Shown in pieces: positions 2,742 to 44,093 of a stretch of DNA of 44,093 bases. Source of the DNA: Gemmatimonadota bacterium (GTDB lineage: Bacteria > Gemmatimonadota > Gemmatimonadetes > Longimicrobiales > Gaopeijiaceae); NCBI GenBank assembly GCA_022826025.1, contig JAJDVR010000045.1:1-44093 (forward strand), written 5' to 3'. The notes beneath the pieces were generated by a model, which worked only from the letters and a program-made list of their open reading frames with translations, ran no database searches and had not been told where the DNA came from. Numbering within the stretch: the stretch's first letter is position 1; each line of letters opens with the position of its first letter. The position numbers and the translations under genes were made by a program.

Positions 2742-4283
2742 CTATCCGCTTCGTGGACCGGAACGCCGCGGCGCTGGCGAGGAGTCCTCCATGGCCTCCC
2801 GGGCAGCGGCCTCGATCTCCCACGGGATAGCTGAGTCGCGATAGAGGGCAGCCCCGTTCGACAGGATGGTCCCCTTGCCCTTCGCCGGGGCGCCCGGATG
2901 AACCGATGGGACCGGCGGCAGGCCCGAGTCGGCTCGCGTGTCCACCCACGATGGCCTCCTGGGCGCGTCCACCAGCATCCTCCCTTTCGGCGTGAAGAAC
3001 AGGACCGTCCCGTCATTGTTCACCGATACCTTGACCCGCCCTTCGTGAACGGCGCGGTGGTGCCGCCGGCAGAGCAGCAGCGTGTTCCCGAGGCTCGTCT
3101 CGCCCCCGTCGGCCCAGTGCTTCACGTGGTGCGCTTCTGTAAACCGGCACCCGCACCCGGGAAAGCGGCATCCCCGGTCCCGCTCCTCCAGCGCCCGCCG
3201 GATGTGCGGCGGGATGGTGCGCGTCCGGCGCCCCACGTTCAGCAACGAGCCGTCCCTCGCGTGGACCATCGCGACCACCGCCGCATCGCACGCCATGCGC
3301 CGCGACGTCTCCGCGGAAACGCGAATCCCGTCCAGATCCGAGCGTCCAGGCTCGCCCTCCGCCGCGAGCGTCGCGGCATCACAATGGACCATGACCTGGT
3401 AGCGCTCGGCCCGGGTTCCGGACTCGACGCGGGGTGCAGTCAACGGCTCGCCGTGGGATGAAGTCCGTCCTTCGCCACCAAAGCCCGCCGTCAGCGCCCG
3501 CTCCGCCAGGAGACCCACCGCATCCGCCCGGCGCTGCTTCGGCTCGGGGCGCGGATTGCCGTTTTCGCTCTCACGACTCCCGACACCCGCATCATCCTCG
3601 CCCCGGAACAGCGCATCCGACGCCGCCTCCACCGCGCGCATCAGCATCGCCCCGACCTCGGGCTCGAGCCGCCCCTTCACCACGTACATTCCGTCGCCGT
3701 CCACGAAGACCGAGAAGGTGCGGCTGCGGTGCCGGGCCTGCTCGGCGGTCAGCTCTGCGTCGCGCGACAGCTTCTTCCACATGCGCACCGTCCGCTCCAA
3801 CTTCGCCGCCGAGCCCGCGCGCGCGAACTCGAGCAGTTCCGCCTCGTGCTCGGGGGTCGCAACCCGGGTGAGCGCCCGCACCTTGGCGTACGAGATGCTC
3901 CCCTCGCGCAGAGCATCGGCGGTCTGGGGCAGGTGCTCCAGTGCCCGAGCGGTCCGCACCCGTTCGCGAGCCGTGCCGATCCTGGTGCCGGTCCTCCAGG
4001 CCAGCCACTCGGCGCAGGAGGAGAATCCGCCGTCCTTCCACCCGCCCCGCCGGTCGAAGTCGGCGATCAGGGTCATCATCCGCGCCTCGGCGGAGTTGAT
4101 GCAGGCCGCCAATTCGGCGATGCGCTCGCCCAGTTTGTGGAGCTCGTCGTCATCTCGCGAGGGCTCGCGACCGGACGGCGCGGGGTCGGCGTCGAGTGGA
4201 ACACCCATCGGTTCCCGTACCACCGCGGGCCACGGGGAGGGCCTCCGACGAGTGTCGTAGAGAATGTCTGCAGGCGCGACCAT
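2742..4283 (-). CDS. DUF222 / HNH endonuclease-domain protein (13E12-repeat type)
   Basis: About 513 residues. The N-terminal two thirds are the helical DUF222 region (ELAACINSAEARMMTLIADF, WLAWRTGTRIGTARERVRTA). The C-terminal part is an HNH nuclease fold: CRFPGC, EAHHVKHWADGG, then N and CRRHH, the Cys pairs and His residues of a zinc-stabilised beta-beta-alpha metal site. The family is often found in many copies per genome and its physiological role is not settled; nicking or cutting of DNA is presumed. I place the start at the ATG at 4283 (or the adjacent ATG at 4286), because GGAGG sits 4 nt upstream; the open frame extends 9 more codons to a TTG with no ribosome site. Its 3' end runs into a fragment that matches the TonB receptor gene (see 2745-2777). 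The HNH and DUF222 calls are firm; the function is not. Confidence 0.85.
   Translation of the reverse strand: MVAPADILYDTRRRPSPWPAVVREPMGVPLDADPAPSGREPSRDDDELHKLGERIAELAACINSAEARMMTLIADFDRRGGWKDGGFSSCAEWLAWRTGTRIGTARERVRTARALEHLPQTADALREGSISYAKVRALTRVATPEHEAELLEFARAGSAAKLERTVRMWKKLSRDAELTAEQARHRSRTFSVFVDGDGMYVVKGRLEPEVGAMLMRAVEAASDALFRGEDDAGVGSRESENGNPRPEPKQRRADAVGLLAERALTAGFGGEGRTSSHGEPLTAPRVESGTRAERYQVMVHCDAATLAAEGEPGRSDLDGIRVSAETSRRMACDAAVVAMVHARDGSLLNVGRRTRTIPPHIRRALEERDRGCRFPGCGCRFTEAHHVKHWADGGETSLGNTLLLCRRHHRAVHEGRVKVSVNNDGTVLFFTPKGRMLVDAPRRPSWVDTRADSGLPPVPSVHPGAPAKGKGTILSNGAALYRDSAIPWEIEAAAREAMEDSSPAPRRSGPRSG
2745..2777 (+). repeat. Fragment resembling the upstream TonB receptor gene
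   Basis: These 33 bases match 935-967 of the receptor gene at 31 of 33 positions; both differences are at codon third positions (gat/gac and gcc/gcg). In the receptor they encode the segment FRFVDRNAAAL. Here the copy lies just behind the ankyrin gene and overlaps the last codons of the opposite-strand HNH gene. Third-position-only differences suggest a piece of a related receptor gene left behind by a rearrangement, rather than chance. Too short to be certain. Confidence 0.5.
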
Positions 4284-4321
4284 CATTCCTCCCAACGTTG
4301 GATTGCACAATGACTTACGTA

Positions 4322-32797: not shown

Positions 32798-34930
32798 ATG
32801 GAAACAAGGCGTCCCACCACTCCGGAGGCCGAGGAGATCCTCGGACTCTACTACCCCGTGCTCGACCACGGCTTCGTATCGCTGGTCGACTACATGGGCA
32901 GCGACGAGAGCATCGAGCACGCCGCGCGGGTCAGCTACGGCTACGGCACCCGCAAACGCAGCGCCACCCGCGGCCTTATCCGCTACCTGCGCCGCCATCT
33001 GCACACCACCCCCAGCGAGATGGTCGAGCTCAAGTTCCACTGCGCCATGCCGATGTTCGTGGCCCGCCAGTGGGTGCGGCACCGCACGGCGTGCCTGGCG
33101 GAGGGCACCGAGGTCTTCTTCGACCTGCCTGGCGCGGAGGCGAGGGGGCGCCGCCAACTCTACAAGCTACCCATCGAAGAGATCTGGCGACGCTTTCAAC
33201 CCACCCGGAATCGAACTCGCCCCGACAAGCAGCGGAACCCGTTTCATCGCCGTGATCGCCTGCGCCGGATGAAACTCAGGCAAGTGAACGAGGACACGCT
33301 GGCGTGCCAGCACACCCGCATTGTGGACGTGTACCGGAACGGCCCGAAGCCGGTGTTCAGGATGGTTCTGGAGGACGGCAAGTCCATCGAAGCCACATCC
33401 GATCACCGATTCCTGTTCGGGACCGGTTGGGACACGCTTGGGCGGGCGACCGGGTTGCGGGAAACTGGTGGACGCGCGGTATGGCGGCACGGCGACTACT
33501 TCGTATACGTCAACGGTGCAGCCGAGGAGCGTCCCGCATTCTACCGAGATCCGATCTGGCTGCAGCGCGAGTACCGAGGACACCGGCGGTCGTTGGCCGA
33601 TTTGGCACAGGCGTGTGGTGTGACTGTGCATACGATCCGCAAATGGCTTCGGCACTACCGCCTCACGGAGCCCGGGCGAGGCCGCTTCGAAGGCGGCGCC
33701 AAGCCCTGGAATCACGGCAGAACCTACCAGCTGGGGCCGCGGAAGGCGTCCAGGCGGTTTCTCGACGCGGTCCGGGCCGCCCGCAGCGGTCCCGCGTCCA
33801 ACTTCTGGCGCGGCGGCAGATCCGAGGAACGGGCATCGATCGCCCGATGGACCACTCAGATCGCCGCAAAGATTCATGCACGCAACGGATGGACCTGCCA
33901 GCTGTGCGAGGAAAGGCGACCGGAACTCCACTGCCATCACATTGTGCCCGTGTGGGCGGACCTCGACCGAGCCCGCGATCCCGACAACCTTACAACGCTC
34001 TGCGGGGCCTGCCACCGCTCGATCGCCGGGCGGGAGCTGGGGTTCGTGGAACGACTTGGTGGTCCGCCGGTCAAGTCCGAGTGGGTGCCGCGCCCCCGCA
34101 TCCCCTGGAACCGCCTCGACAAGGCCAAGCTCGTGCGGATCAAACGCATCGAGTTCGTCGGCGAGCGGGAGACATACGACCTCGAAGTCGAGGGCCCATA
34201 CCACAACTTTGTGGCGAACGGCATCGTCACCCACAACTCCATCAATGAATACTCGGGTCGGTACAGCCTGATGCCGCTCCTCTTCTACAGCCCCCACGCA
34301 GAGAACTTCTCGCTGCAGAGCAGCGTCAACAACCAGGGCAGGGAGGCCGACGCCGCCCCACAGCGTCTGTACGGGGATGCCATCCGGCGCTGGGAGGAGG
34401 TACGAGCCTCCGCTTCGCGCGCGTACGCGTGGATGGTACAGGAGGACGTCGCCCGCGAGCTGGCCCGCATCGACCTGCCGCTCTCGACCTACACGCAGTG
34501 GTACTGGAAGATCGATCTGCACAACCTGCTGCACTTCCTCACGCTGCGCGTGGACGACCACGCCCAGTGGGAGATCCAGGAGTTCGGGCGGGTGATGGCC
34601 GGGATGCTCAAGCGCGTGGCCCCGCTGAGCTTCGAGGCGTGGATCGACTACCAGGTGTGCGGCGACAAGCTGAGCCGGATGGAGATCGAAGCGCTGGCGA
34701 GGCTTCTGGAGCCGACGGAAGACGGCGGGCTGGCGGTACGTGGAGATCGCGACAGCCTCGGGTTCGACGAGCTGCGCGGAATGGGGATGGCGCCGCGGGA
34801 AATCCGCGAGCTGACGGGCAAGATCCGGCCGCGCACACCCCCGCATTTCGATCTGGATCTCTCGCGTTTCCGCTCCGCCGAGGAGGTGGCCGCGGAGATG
34901 CACGAGGCGGTGCCCGGGAACTTCGAATAG
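32798..34930 (+). CDS. thyX: Flavin-dependent thymidylate synthase precursor interrupted by an intein
   Basis: 710 codons in one frame, of which 328 encode the enzyme. The ThyX signature RHRxxSxNExSxRY is split: RHRTA ends the N-extein at residue 98, and SINEYSGRY resumes at Ser481. The rest of the C-extein contains the usual helical domain (QEDVARELARIDLPLSTYTQWYWKID, then LLHFLTLR). After splicing the motif reads RHRTASINEYSGRY, complete. ThyX makes dTMP from dUMP using FAD and methylene-tetrahydrofolate and is essential where ThyA is absent, so unspliced protein would be lethal or costly. The ribosome site is weak. The start is 66 bp from the divergent aldehyde dehydrogenase start. Confidence 0.94.
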   Translation: METRRPTTPEAEEILGLYYPVLDHGFVSLVDYMGSDESIEHAARVSYGYGTRKRSATRGLIRYLRRHLHTTPSEMVELKFHCAMPMFVARQWVRHRTACLAEGTEVFFDLPGAEARGRRQLYKLPIEEIWRRFQPTRNRTRPDKQRNPFHRRDRLRRMKLRQVNEDTLACQHTRIVDVYRNGPKPVFRMVLEDGKSIEATSDHRFLFGTGWDTLGRATGLRETGGRAVWRHGDYFVYVNGAAEERPAFYRDPIWLQREYRGHRRSLADLAQACGVTVHTIRKWLRHYRLTEPGRGRFEGGAKPWNHGRTYQLGPRKASRRFLDAVRAARSGPASNFWRGGRSEERASIARWTTQIAAKIHARNGWTCQLCEERRPELHCHHIVPVWADLDRARDPDNLTTLCGACHRSIAGRELGFVERLGGPPVKSEWVPRPRIPWNRLDKAKLVRIKRIEFVGERETYDLEVEGPYHNFVANGIVTHNSINEYSGRYSLMPLLFYSPHAENFSLQSSVNNQGREADAAPQRLYGDAIRRWEEVRASASRAYAWMVQEDVARELARIDLPLSTYTQWYWKIDLHNLLHFLTLRVDDHAQWEIQEFGRVMAGMLKRVAPLSFEAWIDYQVCGDKLSRMEIEALARLLEPTEDGGLAVRGDRDSLGFDELRGMGMAPREIRELTGKIRPRTPPHFDLDLSRFRSAEEVAAEMHEAVPGNFE
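33092..34237 (+). mobile_element. Intein with HTH and HNH homing-endonuclease domains, in thyX
   Basis: 382 residues, from Cys99 to Asn480 of the precursor. Splicing blocks: A, CLAEGTEVFF with nucleophile Cys1; B, EATSDHRFLF with the TxxH histidine; F, YDLEVEGPYHNFVANG; G, IVTHN followed by Ser+1. All chemistry residues are present, so splicing is expected. Between B and F lie a helix-turn-helix (about 259-289, SLADLAQACGVTVHTIRKWL) and an HNH nuclease with Cys367, Cys370, His380-His381, Asn397, Cys402, Cys405 and His406. The nuclease motif is intact and could drive homing. This differs from the common LAGLIDADG inteins. Codon choice is more relaxed than in the flanking exteins, fitting horizontal arrival. 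Confidence 0.93.
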
Positions 34931-37194: not shown

Positions 37195-39636
37195 CTACCC
37201 CGCCTGCCCGCGCCCGGGCCGCGGGCCACGGGGGGATGGTCTCGATTCCGGAGGCGCGTCTCGCAAGACCTGGGCAGGCGGTCCCGTGGGGCGGTCGTCC
37301 GCCGCGGGCATCCGGTAGCCCACTCTTCGCTCGTTGACGATGTAGGCCGGCCGGGCTCCGTCCTCCCCCAGTTTGTGGCGGAGCCTCTTCACGACGGCAT
37401 GCACCAGCCTCGGGTTGGCGGAGCCCCGATAGCGAGTGCCCCAGGCGAGGCGCAACAGGGCGCGGTACGTCAACACTCGTCCGTGGTTGGTCGAGAGCAC
37501 GCGCAGCAGCTCGTACTCGGTGGCGGTGAGGTCCAGTGGCCGGCCGCCGAGGGTCACCCGGCGTCGGTCGTAGTCGATGGCCAGCGCTCTCAGCTTGAAG
37601 GATGCGGGCTCGGCGCGGGTACGCAGTGCCGCCCGGATCCTCGCCGTCAACTCCGTCGCCGAGAACGGCTTGACGATGTAATCGGCGGCCCCGGCCTCGA
37701 GAGCCTTCGCGATCGTCTCGTCCCGCCCGTAGGCCGAGATGAAAATGACCGGCACATCGGCCAGGTCGGGAACCTCCTCCATCAGCTTGATGCCGTCGGT
37801 CCCGGGTAACATCAGATCGAGCAGGACCAGGCGGGGCCTTTCCGCGCGAATGATGCGCGACAGTTCGCGAGCCTCGCCCGTCGCCACCACGGAATAGCCT
37901 GCCGTGGTGAGCATATCGCGGACATGGAGCAGGGCATGTGGGTCGTCGTCCACCACGAGGATGGGTGTCACCTCCTGACCTGGACGCGCGCGTCGCTGTG
38001 AGGAGGATTCCGGCGCCGTCACGTCGCCGCCGGCCTTCTCGACGGTAGGGACGGTGAATGTGAACCGGGCGCCCCGGCCCTCCCCGTCGCTCCGCGCCCA
38101 GATGCGCCCTCCGTGCGCCTCTACCAGTCCCTTGCAGATGGCGAGCCCCAGGCCGGTCGCCAGACCGCGCTTTCCCTCGCCCGCGCCGGTCCGCTTGGCG
38201 AACAGGTGCGCGAGCCGTTCGGGCGCGATGCCCTTGCCATGGTCGGAGACGGAGATCGCCACATGGACACCGTCCCGCCGCGCCCTGATCTCGATGGGGG
38301 ATGATGCCTGAGAGTATCTCGACGCATTCGAGAGGAGGTTGCTGAGGACCTGCACGATGCGCTGCCGGTCGACCATCACCTTCGGCAGGTCCGGAGAAAG
38401 GTCGACGCGCACGCTGTGTCGGCCGCCGGCGTTCAGGAACGTGTTCCTCGCCCGGTCGATCAGCCCCCCGACGTCCGAGGCTTGGGACGAGATCGACAAG
38501 GTTCCCGTCGCGATTCGCCCCGCATCCAGCAGGTCGCCCATGAGGACGCTCATGTTGTCGGCATGCTCGTCGATGATCCGGAAGAACTGCAGCATCTCCG
38601 CATGAGCGAGGCGCCTTGAGGCGTCGAGCACCGTGGCCGACGAGCCCTTTATGGCGGCAAGCGGCGCGCGCAACTCGTGGCTCACGATCGCCAGGAACTC
38701 GGTCCGCATCCGCTCGAGTTCGTCAAAGGGCGCCAGGTCCTGCATGGTGACCACGACGGAGTCGACGCTACCGTCGGTCTCATGGATCGGCGTCACGTTG
38801 ACGAGCGTCTTCACGCTGCGGCCATCCGGAACCGAAAGCTCGATCTCCTCGGCACGCAGTGTCTCGGCGCTACTCAGCTCGTGCGCCAGCGGGACTTCCT
38901 TCAAGGCGACCTCACGCCCGTCCCCGAGCCGGCAGGTAAGCGATTCCAGCAGCTCCATCGTGGACCCGCCAGGCATCTGCAGGCTTCGGACGATTCGTTT
39001 CGCCTCCCGGTTGATCGACAGCGGGTTTCCGGTTCTGGCGTCCAGGACCACCACACCGACCGGCGATGTATCGACGAGGGTTTCCACCTTCGCCCGCGCC
39101 CGCTGCTCGTCCCGAAACATGCGGGCGTTGGCGATCGCCGTCGCCGCTTGCGACGCCAACAGCACGAGAACCTCTTCGTCCTCGGGGGTGAACTCGCCGC
39201 CCCCGTCCTTTCCGGCGAGGAAGAAGCTGCCGACGTGGATGCCCCGATGACGGATCGGCGTGCCCTGCAGCGTCCTGGATGGAAGCGCGATTGGCGAAAA
39301 GCCGAGCGACCGGAGCCAGGTCGGCACGTCGTCGACCCGCACGGCACCCGGCAGGTCCCGGAAGTGCTCGAAGACCCGGAGCCCATCTTCCCACTCCTCA
39401 AGCTGCCGCAGCTGCTCCGGTGTCAGGCCGGAGGCGAGGTAGAGCCCGGGTTCGCCCGCGTCATCGACGGTAGCAATCAGGCCATGACGGGCCCCGGTCA
39501 GGGCGCGGGCGCTGTCGACGACATCCTGCAGGACCGTCTCAAGGTCCAGGCTCGCGTTGATGCGCAGGAGCGCGGCGCATAGTCTCGAGATGCGCTCCTG
39601 CAGCGCCTCACTTCGCGCGTCCGGGTGCTCTGTCAC
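37195..39636 (-). CDS. One-protein signalling system: GAF-PAS-histidine kinase-receiver-OmpR DNA-binding
   Basis: 813 residues from the GTG at 39636, which has GGGGAGG 8 nt upstream; an ATG at 39738 adds 34 residues of non-conserved look. Domains in order: GAF (about 10-180), PAS (about 180-300), dimerisation domain with His320 (IVSHELRAPLAAIKG), ATPase with NLLSNASRYS, DHGKGI and GLATGLGLAICKGLVE, receiver with Asp607 (LLDLMLPGTDG) and Lys in YIVKPF, then a winged helix of OmpR type (LTATEYELLRVLSTNHGRVLTYRALL ending VGYRM). It has no membrane segment, so it senses a cytoplasmic signal. Phosphate would pass from His320 to Asp607 in the same chain and change DNA binding. The target genes are unknown. 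Confidence 0.9.
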   Translation of the reverse strand: MTEHPDARSEALQERISRLCAALLRINASLDLETVLQDVVDSARALTGARHGLIATVDDAGEPGLYLASGLTPEQLRQLEEWEDGLRVFEHFRDLPGAVRVDDVPTWLRSLGFSPIALPSRTLQGTPIRHRGIHVGSFFLAGKDGGGEFTPEDEEVLVLLASQAATAIANARMFRDEQRARAKVETLVDTSPVGVVVLDARTGNPLSINREAKRIVRSLQMPGGSTMELLESLTCRLGDGREVALKEVPLAHELSSAETLRAEEIELSVPDGRSVKTLVNVTPIHETDGSVDSVVVTMQDLAPFDELERMRTEFLAIVSHELRAPLAAIKGSSATVLDASRRLAHAEMLQFFRIIDEHADNMSVLMGDLLDAGRIATGTLSISSQASDVGGLIDRARNTFLNAGGRHSVRVDLSPDLPKVMVDRQRIVQVLSNLLSNASRYSQASSPIEIRARRDGVHVAISVSDHGKGIAPERLAHLFAKRTGAGEGKRGLATGLGLAICKGLVEAHGGRIWARSDGEGRGARFTFTVPTVEKAGGDVTAPESSSQRRARPGQEVTPILVVDDDPHALLHVRDMLTTAGYSVVATGEARELSRIIRAERPRLVLLDLMLPGTDGIKLMEEVPDLADVPVIFISAYGRDETIAKALEAGAADYIVKPFSATELTARIRAALRTRAEPASFKLRALAIDYDRRRVTLGGRPLDLTATEYELLRVLSTNHGRVLTYRALLRLAWGTRYRGSANPRLVHAVVKRLRHKLGEDGARPAYIVNERRVGYRMPAADDRPTGPPAQVLRDAPPESRPSPRGPRPGRGQAG

Positions 39637-39738
39637 CGACTCGCCCTCCCCGGATCTCGCCCGGCGTGTCCCAGGCGCGTGTGCCGTCGGCGACCATCGG
39701 ACCCGGCGTTGCCAAATGCGATCCAGAGCTTTCGCCAT

Positions 39739-40288
39739 CTTCGCTCGTGGCTTCGTCTAAAGATAGCCGATAACATGTGATCTGTAAGTTATATCTCCAG
39801 GGAGATTGCTGATTCTTTGGTGACAACACTGAATACATGCATGTCGAGGCTCCATCTCCGAGTGTCCCTGGGTCCCGTACGGCAATATGTGTCGTTGGGA
39901 TTTGCAGCGCGGGGCGCGGTTGCGAGGTCCTGGTGATCGAGTCCCTGGGACAGCACGGCCAGGAAGGGGCATGCCGCCCGGCATCGAACTCGGAGTCCGG
40001 GACGCGACGGGCCGCGGGTGCGGCGCGATCACCTTTGGGGAAGGCTTGTACCGACGCGAGTCCAATATCGCCGACAGATGGCAATAATAACACCATCTGT
40101 CGCCCGCGGATCGCAGGCGAAGTTGTAAGTTTAAGTGAGTAGTTGATGCTGAGTTGGACTCCGGGTTAAGGCCGGCGACGATACCGGCATCTTCCGAGCG
40201 CAGTCACGCACTCGATTTGTCAACACCGCCAGACCGGGAAGAGCGTCGACCGGAGGCGCGCGTTCAGGTGACGGCCAGGACAGGTGTC
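39739..40288. other. Intergenic region between divergent regulator genes
   Basis: About 550 bp separates the kinase-fusion gene (minus) from the proposed start of the LuxR-type gene (plus). The first 100 bp and the part at 40060-40150 are clearly AT-richer than their surroundings, fitting promoters for both genes. A perfect dyad lies at 40072-40102. Short frames on both strands lack ribosome sites and I do not think they are genes. Confidence 0.5.
40072..40102. promoter_or_regulatory. Perfect 10-bp dyad, probable operator
   Basis: CGACAGATGG (40072-40081) and CCATCTGTCG (40093-40102) are exact inverted copies around 11 AT-rich bases. The half-site centres are two turns apart (21 bp), as expected for a dimeric regulator. 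It lies about 190 bp before the proposed LuxR-type start and about 435 bp from the kinase fusion start. The loop is too AT-rich and the downstream sequence too T-poor for an intrinsic terminator. Confidence 0.55.
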
Positions 40289-41440
40289 ATGAGCCCACAG
40301 GATGTGTTCGACCGCGGGGTGGTGTCGCTTCAGGAGGCCGCGCTCGGCAAGGCGGGCTGGTCGGAGGCGGCGTTGCTGATCAACGAGATCAGCGGGACGA
40401 GGGGCAACGCCCTGGCGTTCGCCGACGGTCGCACCCAGGCTGACGCGCACTTCCTGTTCCTGCGGCTGTGCCACGATGGCGAGCACCGCGAGGACCTCGA
40501 GAGGGAGTACTTCAGCGAGTACTGGGCACGGGACGAGAGCATTCCCCGCGTCGGCCGTCTGCCGGATGGAGCGCTGGTGCCCACCGCCGAGCTGTACACG
40601 AAACGGGAGAGGGAGAGGTCGCCGGCGTACACCGAAGCGAGGCGCAAGGCGGGGATGCAGAACGGCCTCAACGTGCGGCTGGACGGGCCGGGCGGATCGA
40701 ACATCGTACTGAGTCTCGCCGACTCCCTGGAACCGGGAGGCTGGACGTCGGCTCAGCTCGCCGCGGTCCGGTGCCTGCTGCCGCATGTGCGCCAGTTCGT
40801 GCGAGTGCGCAAGACCCTCACTGATGCGCGGGCGCTGGGATGCTCGCTCCTCGCGCTGCTCGAGAGCAGCCGCTGCGGCGTCATCCAACTCGACCGGAAC
40901 GCGCGGATCGTTGCGGCGAACGACCGGGCCTCCGGTCTGCTCCGACAGGGCGAAGAGCTGTCGGACCGGGACGGCTTGCTGAGCGCCACGACGCCTCGGG
41001 ACAACGGCGAGTTGCAGCAACTGCTGGCTCGGGCGCTGCCCCGGCTCGGCGGGCCCGGATCGTCCGGCTCGATGACGATCAAGCGCTCGTCGTTCCGCAC
41101 GAACCTGGTGGTGGACGTAACTCCCGTGTCCGGGCACCAGCGGGACTTCCGCGCCAGACAGGTCGCCGCACTTGTCCTGGTCGTCGACCCGGAAAGCCTG
41201 CCCAGGATCGACGCCCGCCTGGTTCAGGCGGCGCTCGACCTGACCCCGGCTGAGAGCCGGCTGGCGGTCATGGTGGCTGCCGGGCAACACGCGCGCGACA
41301 TCGCTGCGCACACGGGACGCAGCGAAGCCACGGTGCGCTGGCACATACAGAACATCTTCCGCAAACAGGGCATCTCGGGTCAGGCGGACCTGGTGCGGCG
41401 AGTATTGTCGCTGGCAGGCTTTCCCGACTTCCGCCCCTGA
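40289..41440 (+). CDS. LuxR-type transcription regulator with central PAS-like domain
   Basis: 383 residues from the ATG at 40289 (AGGACAGG upstream); the frame is open for 45 more codons back to 40154, but those look non-coding. The C-terminal GerE-type helix-turn-helix is clear: LTPAESRLAVMVAAGQHARDIAAHTGRSEATVRWHIQNIFRKQG. A PAS-like segment (about 225-330, CGVIQLDRNARIVAANDRAS) lies before it, and the N-terminal half may be another sensory domain. There is no receiver Asp or membrane helix, so a bound ligand is the likely signal. It is divergent from the kinase fusion and convergent with the TnpB-like gene. Confidence 0.87.
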   Translation: MSPQDVFDRGVVSLQEAALGKAGWSEAALLINEISGTRGNALAFADGRTQADAHFLFLRLCHDGEHREDLEREYFSEYWARDESIPRVGRLPDGALVPTAELYTKRERERSPAYTEARRKAGMQNGLNVRLDGPGGSNIVLSLADSLEPGGWTSAQLAAVRCLLPHVRQFVRVRKTLTDARALGCSLLALLESSRCGVIQLDRNARIVAANDRASGLLRQGEELSDRDGLLSATTPRDNGELQQLLARALPRLGGPGSSGSMTIKRSSFRTNLVVDVTPVSGHQRDFRARQVAALVLVVDPESLPRIDARLVQAALDLTPAESRLAVMVAAGQHARDIAAHTGRSEATVRWHIQNIFRKQGISGQADLVRRVLSLAGFPDFRP

Positions 41441-41452
41441 CGCCGGACCCAT

Positions 41453-41666
41453 GCGGGCCTCGCTGTGCCTTCAGTCGGCGGCCCGACGGGGACGATGCGG
41501 TTCTCGTCCCTCCCTGATTCGTTCCGGCCTTCGCAGACGACTACAGAGCTTTCGGCCTTCGCGTCCGCGATTCGCGTTTCAGCGACCGGCTCCCCGGTCT
41601 CCGCGCGCGTCGGGGATTGCCCGTCCCCGGTTTCGGCGGGCCTCGCCGTACCTTCAGTCGGCGGCC
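41453..41666. repeat. 31-bp direct repeats, 183 bp apart, at the 3' end of the TnpB-like gene
   Basis: 41453-41483 and 41636-41666 agree at 29 of 31 positions. The second copy lies in the TnpB-like gene, where it encodes the segment after EYKAEWHG (GRRLKVRRG). The first copy lies about 57 nt beyond that gene's stop, next to the LuxR gene end. The flanks do not match, so only this piece was copied or kept. Confidence 0.7.
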
Positions 41667-42578
41667 GTGCCACTCCGCCTTGTACTCGAGCTGGCGCAGC
41701 AGCTCGCTGCTCGCGCCCTCGACTTCGATCTCGCGGGCTTCGTGCACGACGCCGGTCGTGGTCTTGTGTTGCAGATCGCCCTGGCGGTTTCTCACTTTGC
41801 GCGCCTGGTTGCGCATGAGGGCCAGGGTGCGCTTGCGGCCTTCGGACCCGAATTCACATCGCTCCAGTTGCCGCTCGAGCCTCGCCAGGCGGCGTCTCGC
41901 ATTCCGCTGCGTCTTGCTCTCGCGGAACACGCGGACGGGCTCTCCGTCGACCGACACCGTGATCTCGTCGGCCTGCTGGCGCACCGATGCCTTGTCCGTC
42001 CCCGGTTCGACGGGGGTAAGCGGTGCGCACTCGAACAAGCACGAGAGCATCCACCGGTGTCCCGCATCCAGCCAGACCCGGCCCGAGAGCAAACCACGTG
42101 TCTTGCGCCCGGGCGGCCCGGAGAGCCGTCCGCGGGGGAGATTCCCGCCCTTCCAGCGCATCCAGCCGTACCTGGGCAGCCGCACCCGGTTGCCTTCGAA
42201 GCGAATGCTCTGGTTGCTCAGGTAGATGCCGGGCTCCCGGCCGAGCGTCTTGATCCGGGGGAATCCGCGTCTGCCGGGCTTCCTGAACCAGTTGCGGAAA
42301 GCCACGTCGAGATCGGCAGCCACACGGTAGATGGCACTTGCGGGGCACTCCGGGCGCGGCGCCTGGCCGCGCCACTCCCGGGTCAGCGCCCGAAGCTCGG
42401 CCATGGTTGGCCGCCGTCCGGTCTCACCGTAGCTGAGCTGCGAGTTGGCGAGCAGCGTATTGGAGAGCTCGCGCAGGCTGTTCCTGCACCGGAGCAGCGC
42501 CGAGTCCCGCGCGGGACTCGGGTAGAGCCTGCAGCGCCAGCCCACGTAGCGCCGGGCAGTTGATGCGTCCACGGTCAC
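41541..42578 (-). CDS. TnpB-like protein lacking zinc finger and last RuvC motif (nuclease-dead or decayed)
   Basis: 345 residues from the GTG at 42578, which overlaps the stop of the AraC-like gene (GTGA) and has GGGGAG 5 nt upstream. TnpB (IS200/IS605 OrfB) features: YVGWRCRLYPSPARDSALL at the start, VAFRNWF, FPRIKT, VRLPRYGWMRWKG, the arginine-rich RRRLARLERQLERC, QARKVRNRQGDLQHK and LLRQLEYKAEWHG. Lesions: the RuvC-I GIDxG site reads PGTDKAS, about 20 residues around the RuvC-II glutamate are missing (EVEGA joins ELLRQ), and after EYKAEWHG the CxxC finger and RuvC-III Asp are replaced by a basic tail. It cannot be an active nuclease. Either a decaying transposon gene or a TldR-type RNA-guided repressor. 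No tnpA is nearby. Confidence 0.75.
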   Translation of the reverse strand: MTVDASTARRYVGWRCRLYPSPARDSALLRCRNSLRELSNTLLANSQLSYGETGRRPTMAELRALTREWRGQAPRPECPASAIYRVAADLDVAFRNWFRKPGRRGFPRIKTLGREPGIYLSNQSIRFEGNRVRLPRYGWMRWKGGNLPRGRLSGPPGRKTRGLLSGRVWLDAGHRWMLSCLFECAPLTPVEPGTDKASVRQQADEITVSVDGEPVRVFRESKTQRNARRRLARLERQLERCEFGSEGRKRTLALMRNQARKVRNRQGDLQHKTTTGVVHEAREIEVEGASSELLRQLEYKAEWHGRRLKVRRGPPKPGTGNPRRARRPGSRSLKRESRTRRPKAL

Positions 42579-43477
42579 ATCGTCTCCCCGAAGGGCGCCC
42601 GCGCGGGAGCCGGATCGTGCCTCTTCGACCCGTTGGCGGGGCGGGGCGCCCACACGGAATCGACCCACTCATTGAATCGCCCGACGACCCGTTCCGGATC
42701 CTCGGCCGCCGCCGCGAGCGTGCAGTCGGCAAACCGCGTGAAGTTGATTTCCAGCGTGCGGCGCCGCAGCCCCACCTGGTCGGCGATCGCGGTCCAGCCG
42801 GCCTTGGCGCGAGCGCGAACGGCCCAGAGGAGGACGGCCCAGTTCATGAACTCCTTCAGACGGCACCGGAGCGGTGCGTCTTCTCTCCAGTATTGCCTCA
42901 ACGTGGAACCGGCCAGGTTGACCTGGCCCGCCAGCCGACGAACTGAACTCGCCGGTACGAACCGGGTCGCGGCAGCGTCGTCGTGCAGGCCGCAAACCCT
43001 ACTGATCGCTTCCTTGACGGACGGCCTGAAGGACGGGTCGGAGAGCAGCTTCAAGCCGAGGCGGCGCATCGGATCCGGGCTCGGCCTCCCGAGTTCCTCC
43101 AGAACTCCCACGAGGCGGCTCTCCACCTCGTCCGCCCATACGACCCGCAACCCGCCGGAGCGCAGCGGTTCCAGGCGTCGCAGGCACTCCACCGAGATCC
43201 GCGCCACGACGACGCAGGGCGGGTTGAGAGGCCCGGAGGCGGACCGCAGCCACTCAACGTCGGCGTCCGAGCAGGTGGCGACCCCGTACACGACCGGGCA
43301 GACGCTCATGGACGGCGCCAGGAGTTCTCTTCTCGAACGCACGCGCTGGATCGATGCACCGGCGAGCGCCCGCTGCAGCAGGTCTCCAAGCTTGCTGTCC
43401 TTGCAGTACAGCGCGTAGATGAGGCGTTCCGATCTGATCCGTGCCTCCCAGTGCAGGACGGGCGATCGCGATGCCAT
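42575..43477 (-). CDS. AraC-like transcription regulator with non-canonical N-terminal domain
   Basis: 300 residues from the ATG at 43477 (AGAGG upstream). The C-terminal part has two helix-turn-helix units as in AraC: SSVRRLAGQVNLAGSTLRQYW (about 178-197) and GWTAIADQVGLRRRTLEINF (about 227-246). The first 130 residues form alternating strands and helices reminiscent of a receiver domain (LIYALYCKDSKLGDLLQ, VVYGVATCSDADVEWL, RVVWADEVESRLVGVLEEL), but no phosphorylatable Asp pocket is evident. It ends in ATGTGA, sharing 4 nt with the TnpB-like start, so both are made from one message. Targets are unknown. Confidence 0.75.
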   Translation of the reverse strand: MASRSPVLHWEARIRSERLIYALYCKDSKLGDLLQRALAGASIQRVRSRRELLAPSMSVCPVVYGVATCSDADVEWLRSASGPLNPPCVVVARISVECLRRLEPLRSGGLRVVWADEVESRLVGVLEELGRPSPDPMRRLGLKLLSDPSFRPSVKEAISRVCGLHDDAAATRFVPASSVRRLAGQVNLAGSTLRQYWREDAPLRCRLKEFMNWAVLLWAVRARAKAGWTAIADQVGLRRRTLEINFTRFADCTLAAAAEDPERVVGRFNEWVDSVWAPRPANGSKRHDPAPARAPFGETM

Positions 43478-43884
43478 GACCTCTTGCCCGTGTGCGCTCG
43501 ACTATCGAAATATGACAGGAATCCGGTTTCGTCGCGCCTTTCAAGAAAATGGGGTCGATCCCATACTTTTTGCAGGGTATCATGCCCAGTTATTTGCAGG
43601 GTGTCCCGCGCACAGCCGAATCACTAACAAGACACATTGGCGGAGATAGTCGTCGTTTTTTTCGTATATATCGCCACGTTTTTTTCGTTTCAGAAAACAG
43701 TGGTCGGTTTCAATAATCCGAGGTTTCTCGTGGAATGTCGGATGCCGTGAAGAAGGCTGATAGTCCGTAACTGATTGAAAAACAAACAGATCTCAAAGTT
43801 GGCACCACTTTTGCGATTCCCGGGGCACGCGACTCTGCCCAGCCACTTCCGGCCGGTATTCATTCCCACCACTCAGGAGGTTCC
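43478..43884. other. AT-richer leader region with spaced short repeats
   Basis: 407 bp without a credible gene. TTTGCAGGGT occurs at 43569-43578 and 43593-43602 (24 bp apart), and CGTTTTTTTCGT at 43654-43665 and 43677-43688 (23 bp apart). Base composition is lower in GC than anywhere else in the window. This must carry the promoters of the AraC-like gene (minus) and the lipoprotein gene (plus); a ribosome site AGGAGG lies at 43875-43880. Confidence 0.55.
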
Positions 43885-44093
43885 ATGAACCGACTCAACC
43901 TCTTTGCCACGGCTACGCTGATGGCCCTGACCTTCACCGCCTGCGACGAGGGCACTCCGCCGCCTGTGGAGCCCCCGCCGCCGCCGACGCCCGTGGGGAC
44001 GATCTCCGGGACGGTGACGATCGAAGGGACGGCCGCCAGCGGCATCACCGCCACCCTGTCGTCGGGTGCGAGCACCACGACGGGGTCGGGTGG
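43885..44093 (+). CDS. Surface lipoprotein with beta-sandwich domain (3' truncated by window edge)
   Basis: ATG at 43885, 4 nt after CAGGAGG. 69 codons are visible. The N-terminus MNRLNLFATATLMALTFTAC is a lipoprotein signal with lipobox FTAC and Cys20; then come an acidic Asp-Glu, a proline stretch (PPPVEPPPPPTP) and the start of a repeat-type beta domain, VGTISGTVTIEGTAASGITATLSSG, resembling Ig-like/SpaA or carboxypeptidase-regulatory folds of exported proteins. Asp at +2 could act as an inner-membrane retention signal if E. coli rules apply. Function cannot be given from this part. Confidence 0.75.
   Translation, partial: MNRLNLFATATLMALTFTACDEGTPPPVEPPPPPTPVGTISGTVTIEGTAASGITATLSSGASTTTGSG

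Follow-up and report, generated by a model that had tools for sequence, protein, structure and literature searches.

A nuclease-dead TnpB-like protein with a conserved scaffold RNA beside giant lipoprotein genes of Gemmatimonadota: a probable exaptation

The closest described systems to the locus considered here are the TldR proteins, TnpB-like repressors that are nuclease-dead and of which examples linked to fliC and csrA are known (PMC13418256). Our subject is a gene on the minus strand of a stretch of DNA from a Gemmatimonadota bacterium of the family Gaopeijiaceae (assembly GCA_022826025.1, contig JAJDVR010000045.1, positions 1 to 44,093), the whole of which, 44,093 nucleotides long, we call the window. 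An earlier note had proposed that this TnpB-like gene, coupled to a gene for an AraC-like regulator, is an exapted RNA-guided repressor, and the gene coordinates, the frame of 345 codons and the 4-nt overlap (GTGA) between the stop codon of the partner gene and the start of the TnpB-like gene are exactly as it described them (Table 1). That the TnpB-like gene was exapted and is not decaying seems to us highly probable, because its nuclease-dead relatives are intact and subject to purifying selection, and because the scaffold RNA at its 3′ end is conserved; on this point the suggestion of the earlier note holds. With less assurance, we lean towards understanding the protein and its RNA as a TldR-like guide-RNA unit, tied to the gene of a giant surface lipoprotein, that would modulate transcription.

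The descent of the protein from TnpB may be taken as settled by homology: it matches the NCBIfam model guided_TnpB (E = 3.8e-22; 79 bits, below the 100-bit cut-off) and the sequence of the TnpB of PDB entry 8h1j (E = 1.6e-17), which is also the best Foldseek match of its predicted model (E = 7.6e-14, for a model of low confidence, pLDDT 56), while PADLOC returns mainly Cas12f-like profiles, as a TnpB would give. The strand opposite the gene is likewise open, over 370 codons, so that an open frame is in itself little evidence in this GC-rich DNA, and the case is therefore built on comparison with relatives, which were gathered by one scan of the GTDB genome collection. Fifteen near relatives are 76–90% identical across the full length (L013 from residue 10), and none has a premature stop ahead of the tail encoded by the scaffold. 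Purifying selection is found in the dN/dS analysis of orthologues that had been proposed as a check: the ratio is about 0.25 for the body of the TnpB-like gene and lies between 0.15 and 0.38 for 14 of the 15 pairs, L007/L008 being the exception with 0.50 from only ten substitutions. The two outcomes that the earlier note had named as fatal to its reading were looked for, and neither scattered stops in the orthologues nor, in the window's own genome, a full-length or second copy of this TnpB was found; the TnpB-like protein encoded on contig C246 of that genome, which has GYDSGI and DQNAA as well as a zinc finger, is unrelated. The absence of TnpA, which had been pointed out for the window, extends to the genus, in 11 genomes of which no Y1 TnpA (PF01797) was found. 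Relatives are carried by 18 of the 121 genomes of the window's family, with up to six matches each, and searches for the family among plasmids and viral contigs yielded distant TnpBs only (on plasmids all below 60% identity, the best at 25–28%; on viral contigs at most 28%).

Alignment with the 15 relatives and with TnpB chains of the PDB bears out the losses first described, namely those of the zinc finger and of RuvC-III, both absent from the window clade, and of about 20 residues following the RuvC-II Glu, which is itself kept. It adds another, as the RuvC-I Asp is replaced throughout, by Arg in the window protein and in most of its near relatives. By their catalytic residues all the near relatives are nuclease-dead, the Asp-Glu-Asp triad and zinc finger of active TnpB not being intact, and the window protein is, on these residues, unable to cut as TnpB does. 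More distant members retain earlier states: L063 and L068 still have both zinc finger and RuvC-II Glu, with the RuvC-I Asp changed to Ala (GVALG) and Ala again at the position of the RuvC-III Asp (read as R-A-LNAA in L068), and the catalytic motifs of L071 and L072 are more degenerate than theirs. Because these graded states sit within one well-supported clade, which unites the window clade with L063, L068, L071 and L072 (support 100/100; most outgroups have GxDxG and RDxNAA), the motifs point to a stepwise loss of the nuclease, the active site having gone first, the zinc finger and RuvC-III later.

The distribution of the family has its own peculiarities. The proteins of L063 and L171 are identical though they come from two families, and Candidatus Palauibacter, of another family, has a protein 77% identical, which points to horizontal transfer or to contamination of assemblies. 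The records of L007, L008, L009, L011, L012, L017 and L018 are titled Gammaproteobacteria, and their matching loci are those of the window's genus (L007, for example, corresponds to G009:C73:99157-100200), so that these titles look wrong.

The scaffold RNA is conserved beyond the needs of the protein. Its mean p-distance is 0.049 overall and 0.036 when only the noncoding part is counted, while dS reaches 0.48, and in L004 and L006, where a 1-nt deletion alters the protein tail, the next 82 nt differ from the window at 3–4 sites only. It is common to a sister clade with a protein identity of about 50–56%; gene conversion between modules could raise the sameness of scaffolds within a genome, but not that between clades. 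The helices are mostly invariant, and covariation lends them slight support, since only 4 of 33 pairs have two-sided changes, all between the two clades; at the 3′ end TTGAGT can pair with ACTCAA in the sister clade, to which CCCTG with CAGGG would correspond in the window clade, a correspondence noted by eye and uncounted. The single-sequence fold is mildly better than that of shuffled sequences (z -1.8), and an Rfam scan of four loci gave no relevant match. A covariance-model search placed the RNA in 16 of the 121 family genomes, nearly always at a TnpB-like gene. Additional copies occur: three scaffold RNAs surround one TnpB-like gene in L068 (4065-6004, genome G001), the extra ones beside a lipoprotein gene; a lone one lies beside a lipoprotein gene in L127 (498-659, genome G010), with no TnpB-like gene recognised in the 2.1 kb read; and in L017 (7071-9249) a second copy, comprising 58 TnpB codons and the RNA, is found past an insert of about 2 kb, between the TnpB-like gene and LuxR.

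The deepest-rooted partner of this module is a divergent gene for a giant lipoprotein. The protein carries a lipobox, and its CarboxypepD_reg and SdrD_B-like domains are repeated; the gene lies within about 5 kb in 22 of the 24 loci whose contig permits judgement; by our own estimate, made from about 60 matches in 11 genomes of about 4 Mb, chance would account for a few per cent. In the window clade the usual order is lipoprotein, partner gene, TnpB-like gene, LuxR and hybrid kinase; L010, L011, L014, L015 and L017 depart from it through insertion, rearrangement or loss in the interval from the TnpB-like gene to LuxR. In relatives at 32–55% identity the partner was not detected and the lipoprotein gene is near in eight loci, among them zinc-finger-bearing members with Asp-to-Ala changes in RuvC, which argues that the association with the lipoprotein is the older one and that the regulator is a later partner, confined to the window's subclade. 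The pairing of regulator and TnpB on which the earlier note rested thus recurs within this subclade, but is absent from deeper relatives, the older partner being a gene outside the coordinates it had considered. The lipoprotein family is multi-copy, with 2–10 matches per genome. A TGGCAC/T-N5-TTGC element stands in all 23 distinct upstream regions of the window-genus type that were examined, as well as in L066 and L073, and is missing by the strict pattern from that of L069; we infer from this motif the use of sigma-54 at these promoters. In some lipoprotein copies, in G009, G007 and G008 (L086, L087 and L096, ~1500-1560), the third codon is TGA, ATGAACTGACTC; apart from this the frame of L086 and L096 is long, and such copies may be silent or begin translation further downstream.

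In the window's subclade the TnpB-like gene and a two-domain helix-turn-helix regulator would form one overlapping unit. Searches of Pfam and NCBIfam with the partner gave no family match, and its model, of low confidence (pLDDT 62), shows an N-terminal half resembling a receiver domain, followed by two helix-turn-helix units; response regulators and receiver-like folds predominate among its best Foldseek matches, of which none reaches E <= 0.001. The AraC-like label given to it is a structural inference only: the helix pattern of this low-confidence model is compatible with a double helix-turn-helix of the HTH_18 type (AraC/XylS), but a family match is wanting. The overlap is not strictly kept, as the aligned first codon of the TnpB-like gene is not a usual start in L005, L010 and L017, where translation therefore probably begins two or more codons later. 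In L007, L008, L009, L016 and L018 the partner aligns only from about residue 119 (135 in L009), which suggests that the N-terminal half was lost or altered there and the helix-turn-helix half retained. Two paralogues of the partner (38–41%) are found near a hybrid-kinase homologue in the window's own genome (L061, 4767-10579), without an adjoining TnpB-like gene.

Table 1. Features of the module and its surroundings (positions are those of the window)
Feature	Position	Strand	Remarks
Nuclease-dead TnpB-like protein	41541..42578	-	GTG start, 345 aa; residues ~304-345 encoded within the scaffold-RNA region
Partner gene, 300 aa	42575..43477	-	N-terminal half receiver-like, plus two helix-turn-helix units; putatively AraC-like
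Scaffold RNA (reRNA/omegaRNA-like), 155 nt	41514..41668	-	Ends GGCCGGAACGAATCAG; extends 27 nt beyond the TnpB-like stop codon
Candidate guide region	41490..41513	-	Directly 3′ of the scaffold, GGAGGGACGAGAACCGCATCGTCC
Partial copy of scaffold start, 31 bp	41453..41483	-	Also in L004, L006; probable duplication remnant
Divergent giant lipoprotein gene, start	43885..44091	+	Runs off contig; ~1,520-1,560 aa in L018, L007, L004
Sigma-54-like promoter of lipoprotein gene	43799..43814	+	TTGGCACCACTTTTGC; sole match of the pattern in the window, both strands
LuxR-type regulator	40154..41440	+	Convergent with TnpB-like gene; syntenic in most window-clade modules
Hybrid histidine kinase (GAF, PAS, HisKA, HATPase, receiver, winged helix)	37195..39738	-	Syntenic in most window-clade modules

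We may picture the TldR-like unit as follows. The TnpB-like protein would bind an RNA derived from the 3′-terminal part of the transcript that encodes it; the sequence following the scaffold, of which a short seed may be all that is used, would guide binding to DNA without cutting; the bound complex would modulate transcription, most likely that of the multi-copy lipoprotein genes with sigma-54-like promoters; and the partner protein would contribute a regulatory input. Guide-directed regulation of the lipoprotein genes is plausible, the balance being about even. Several carriers probably come from sponges, to judge from their record titles and from what is known of Palauibacter and the BD2-11 clade, a remark that does not concern the window's genome. 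A bolder extension, which we offer tentatively as something rather doubtful, is a multi-locus control of giant surface lipoproteins in sponge-type symbionts, in which the dead TnpB, the helix-turn-helix regulator and locus-specific guides would set which genes with sigma-54-like promoters are on.

Several observations weigh against this TldR-like reading. The candidate guides are not the same in orthologous modules (window, L004, L006), and a fixed target common to these would not be expected to yield such differences. No lipoprotein gene lies within 5 kb in the available sequence of L013, L064 and L170. No guide target was found in the loci compared, in the lipoprotein upstream regions or, for two guides, in whole genomes. 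Self-matches aside, the guides did no better than shuffled ones when compared with 23 lipoprotein upstream regions; with up to 3 mismatches the window guide had 99 matches genome-wide (one of them itself), against 91 for a reversed control, and it has no near-exact second site in its own genome. Exact 12-nt guide seeds, searched in the loci compared, returned LuxR self-matches, copies of the scaffold and a chance-like scatter, with nothing in a lipoprotein upstream region. This failed search is weak evidence, however, because TldRs need only a guide as short as 6 nt (PMC13418256). One candidate target, trpA, matched over 15 nt near its 5′ end by the guide of the L007 type in G008, G009 and G010, was dropped as probable chance, because the matching stretch belongs to the coding part of the gene, the expected number of matches of this kind is about 0.025 per genome, and a trpA was not found in G003, where the same guide occurs.

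The alternative that survives best, though we hold it to be unlikely, is that protein and RNA were retained in a role not directed by a guide, the protein binding the scaffold in its own mRNA, for autoregulation or RNA stability, or partnering the upstream regulator, and the sequence after the scaffold being a functionless flank. The lack of targets fits such a role, and so does the variability of the sequence downstream of a conserved scaffold, which in L016 and L018 is simply the 3′ end of LuxR; yet conservation stops sharply just where a guide would begin, and autoregulation does not explain why extra RNA copies stand beside lipoprotein genes in places that have no complete protein gene. 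One particular form of the TldR-like unit, more doubtful still, would be the silencing of lipoprotein paralogues so as to choose one surface isoform, as a phage TldR silences the flagellin of its host in favour of its own: the multi-copy family with its conserved type of promoter and the parallel with the fliC- and csrA-linked TldRs (PMC13418256) speak for it, but the guides match the lipoprotein upstream regions no better than chance, 6-nt seeds being beyond the reach of sequence comparison. As for simple decay of an element of the IS200/IS605 type, open by chance in GC-rich DNA, it is extremely improbable, for a truncated, lone gene without TnpA and with an open opposite strand might suggest it, but intact relatives, a dN/dS of about 0.25 and the conservation of RNA and neighbourhood contradict it.

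Elsewhere in the window, at 32798-34930, an intein-like splicing domain accompanied by an HNH domain splits the frame of ThyX (thymidylate synthase), and a DUF222 protein bearing an HNH endonuclease domain is encoded at 2742-4310 on the minus strand.

The apparently exapted TnpB-like gene brings a new gene association for a TnpB exaptation, and the intermediates of its clade allow the path from transposon nuclease to regulator to be read directly; if the TldR-like unit acts as proposed, it would amount to natural RNA-guided control over the surface proteins of uncultured symbionts. The TnpB of ISDra2 (8h1j, 8bf8) and the window clade agree in sequence and fold over the N-terminal and RuvC regions, but the clade has neither the catalytic Asp residues nor the zinc finger. 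Systems based on dCas12f act with a sigma factor, and none of the genes beside the window's module was recognised as coding for one; the dCas12f of PDB entries 9n9c and 9n9m is likewise a nuclease-dead protein of the Cas12f/TnpB fold with a guide RNA, but the match is distant, at the level of the fold only (11% identity). It is the TldRs that come nearest, as descendants of TnpB with an inactive RuvC, a scaffold RNA at and past the 3′ end of the gene, a stable link to a non-transposon gene for a surface structure and several loci per genome (PMC13418256). In the window clade too the RuvC is inactive throughout, the neighbour is stable and foreign to transposons, TnpA is lacking, and the scaffold is retained at the 3′ end of the gene, judging from its conservation. 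The window clade differs from the TldRs in that its neighbour is a giant lipoprotein gene with a sigma-54-like promoter, that one subclade adds a two-domain helix-turn-helix regulator, that the zinc finger and RuvC-III are wholly lost and that a guide target was not found in the searches made. A literature search, which did not cover the original TldR survey, found no paper on an association of TnpB with lipoproteins. Leaving that survey out of the comparison, we can therefore understand the unit, from its sequence, as one of the same kind as TldR, and as new in its neighbour, in its lineage, in the degree of its truncation and in the regulator added to it.
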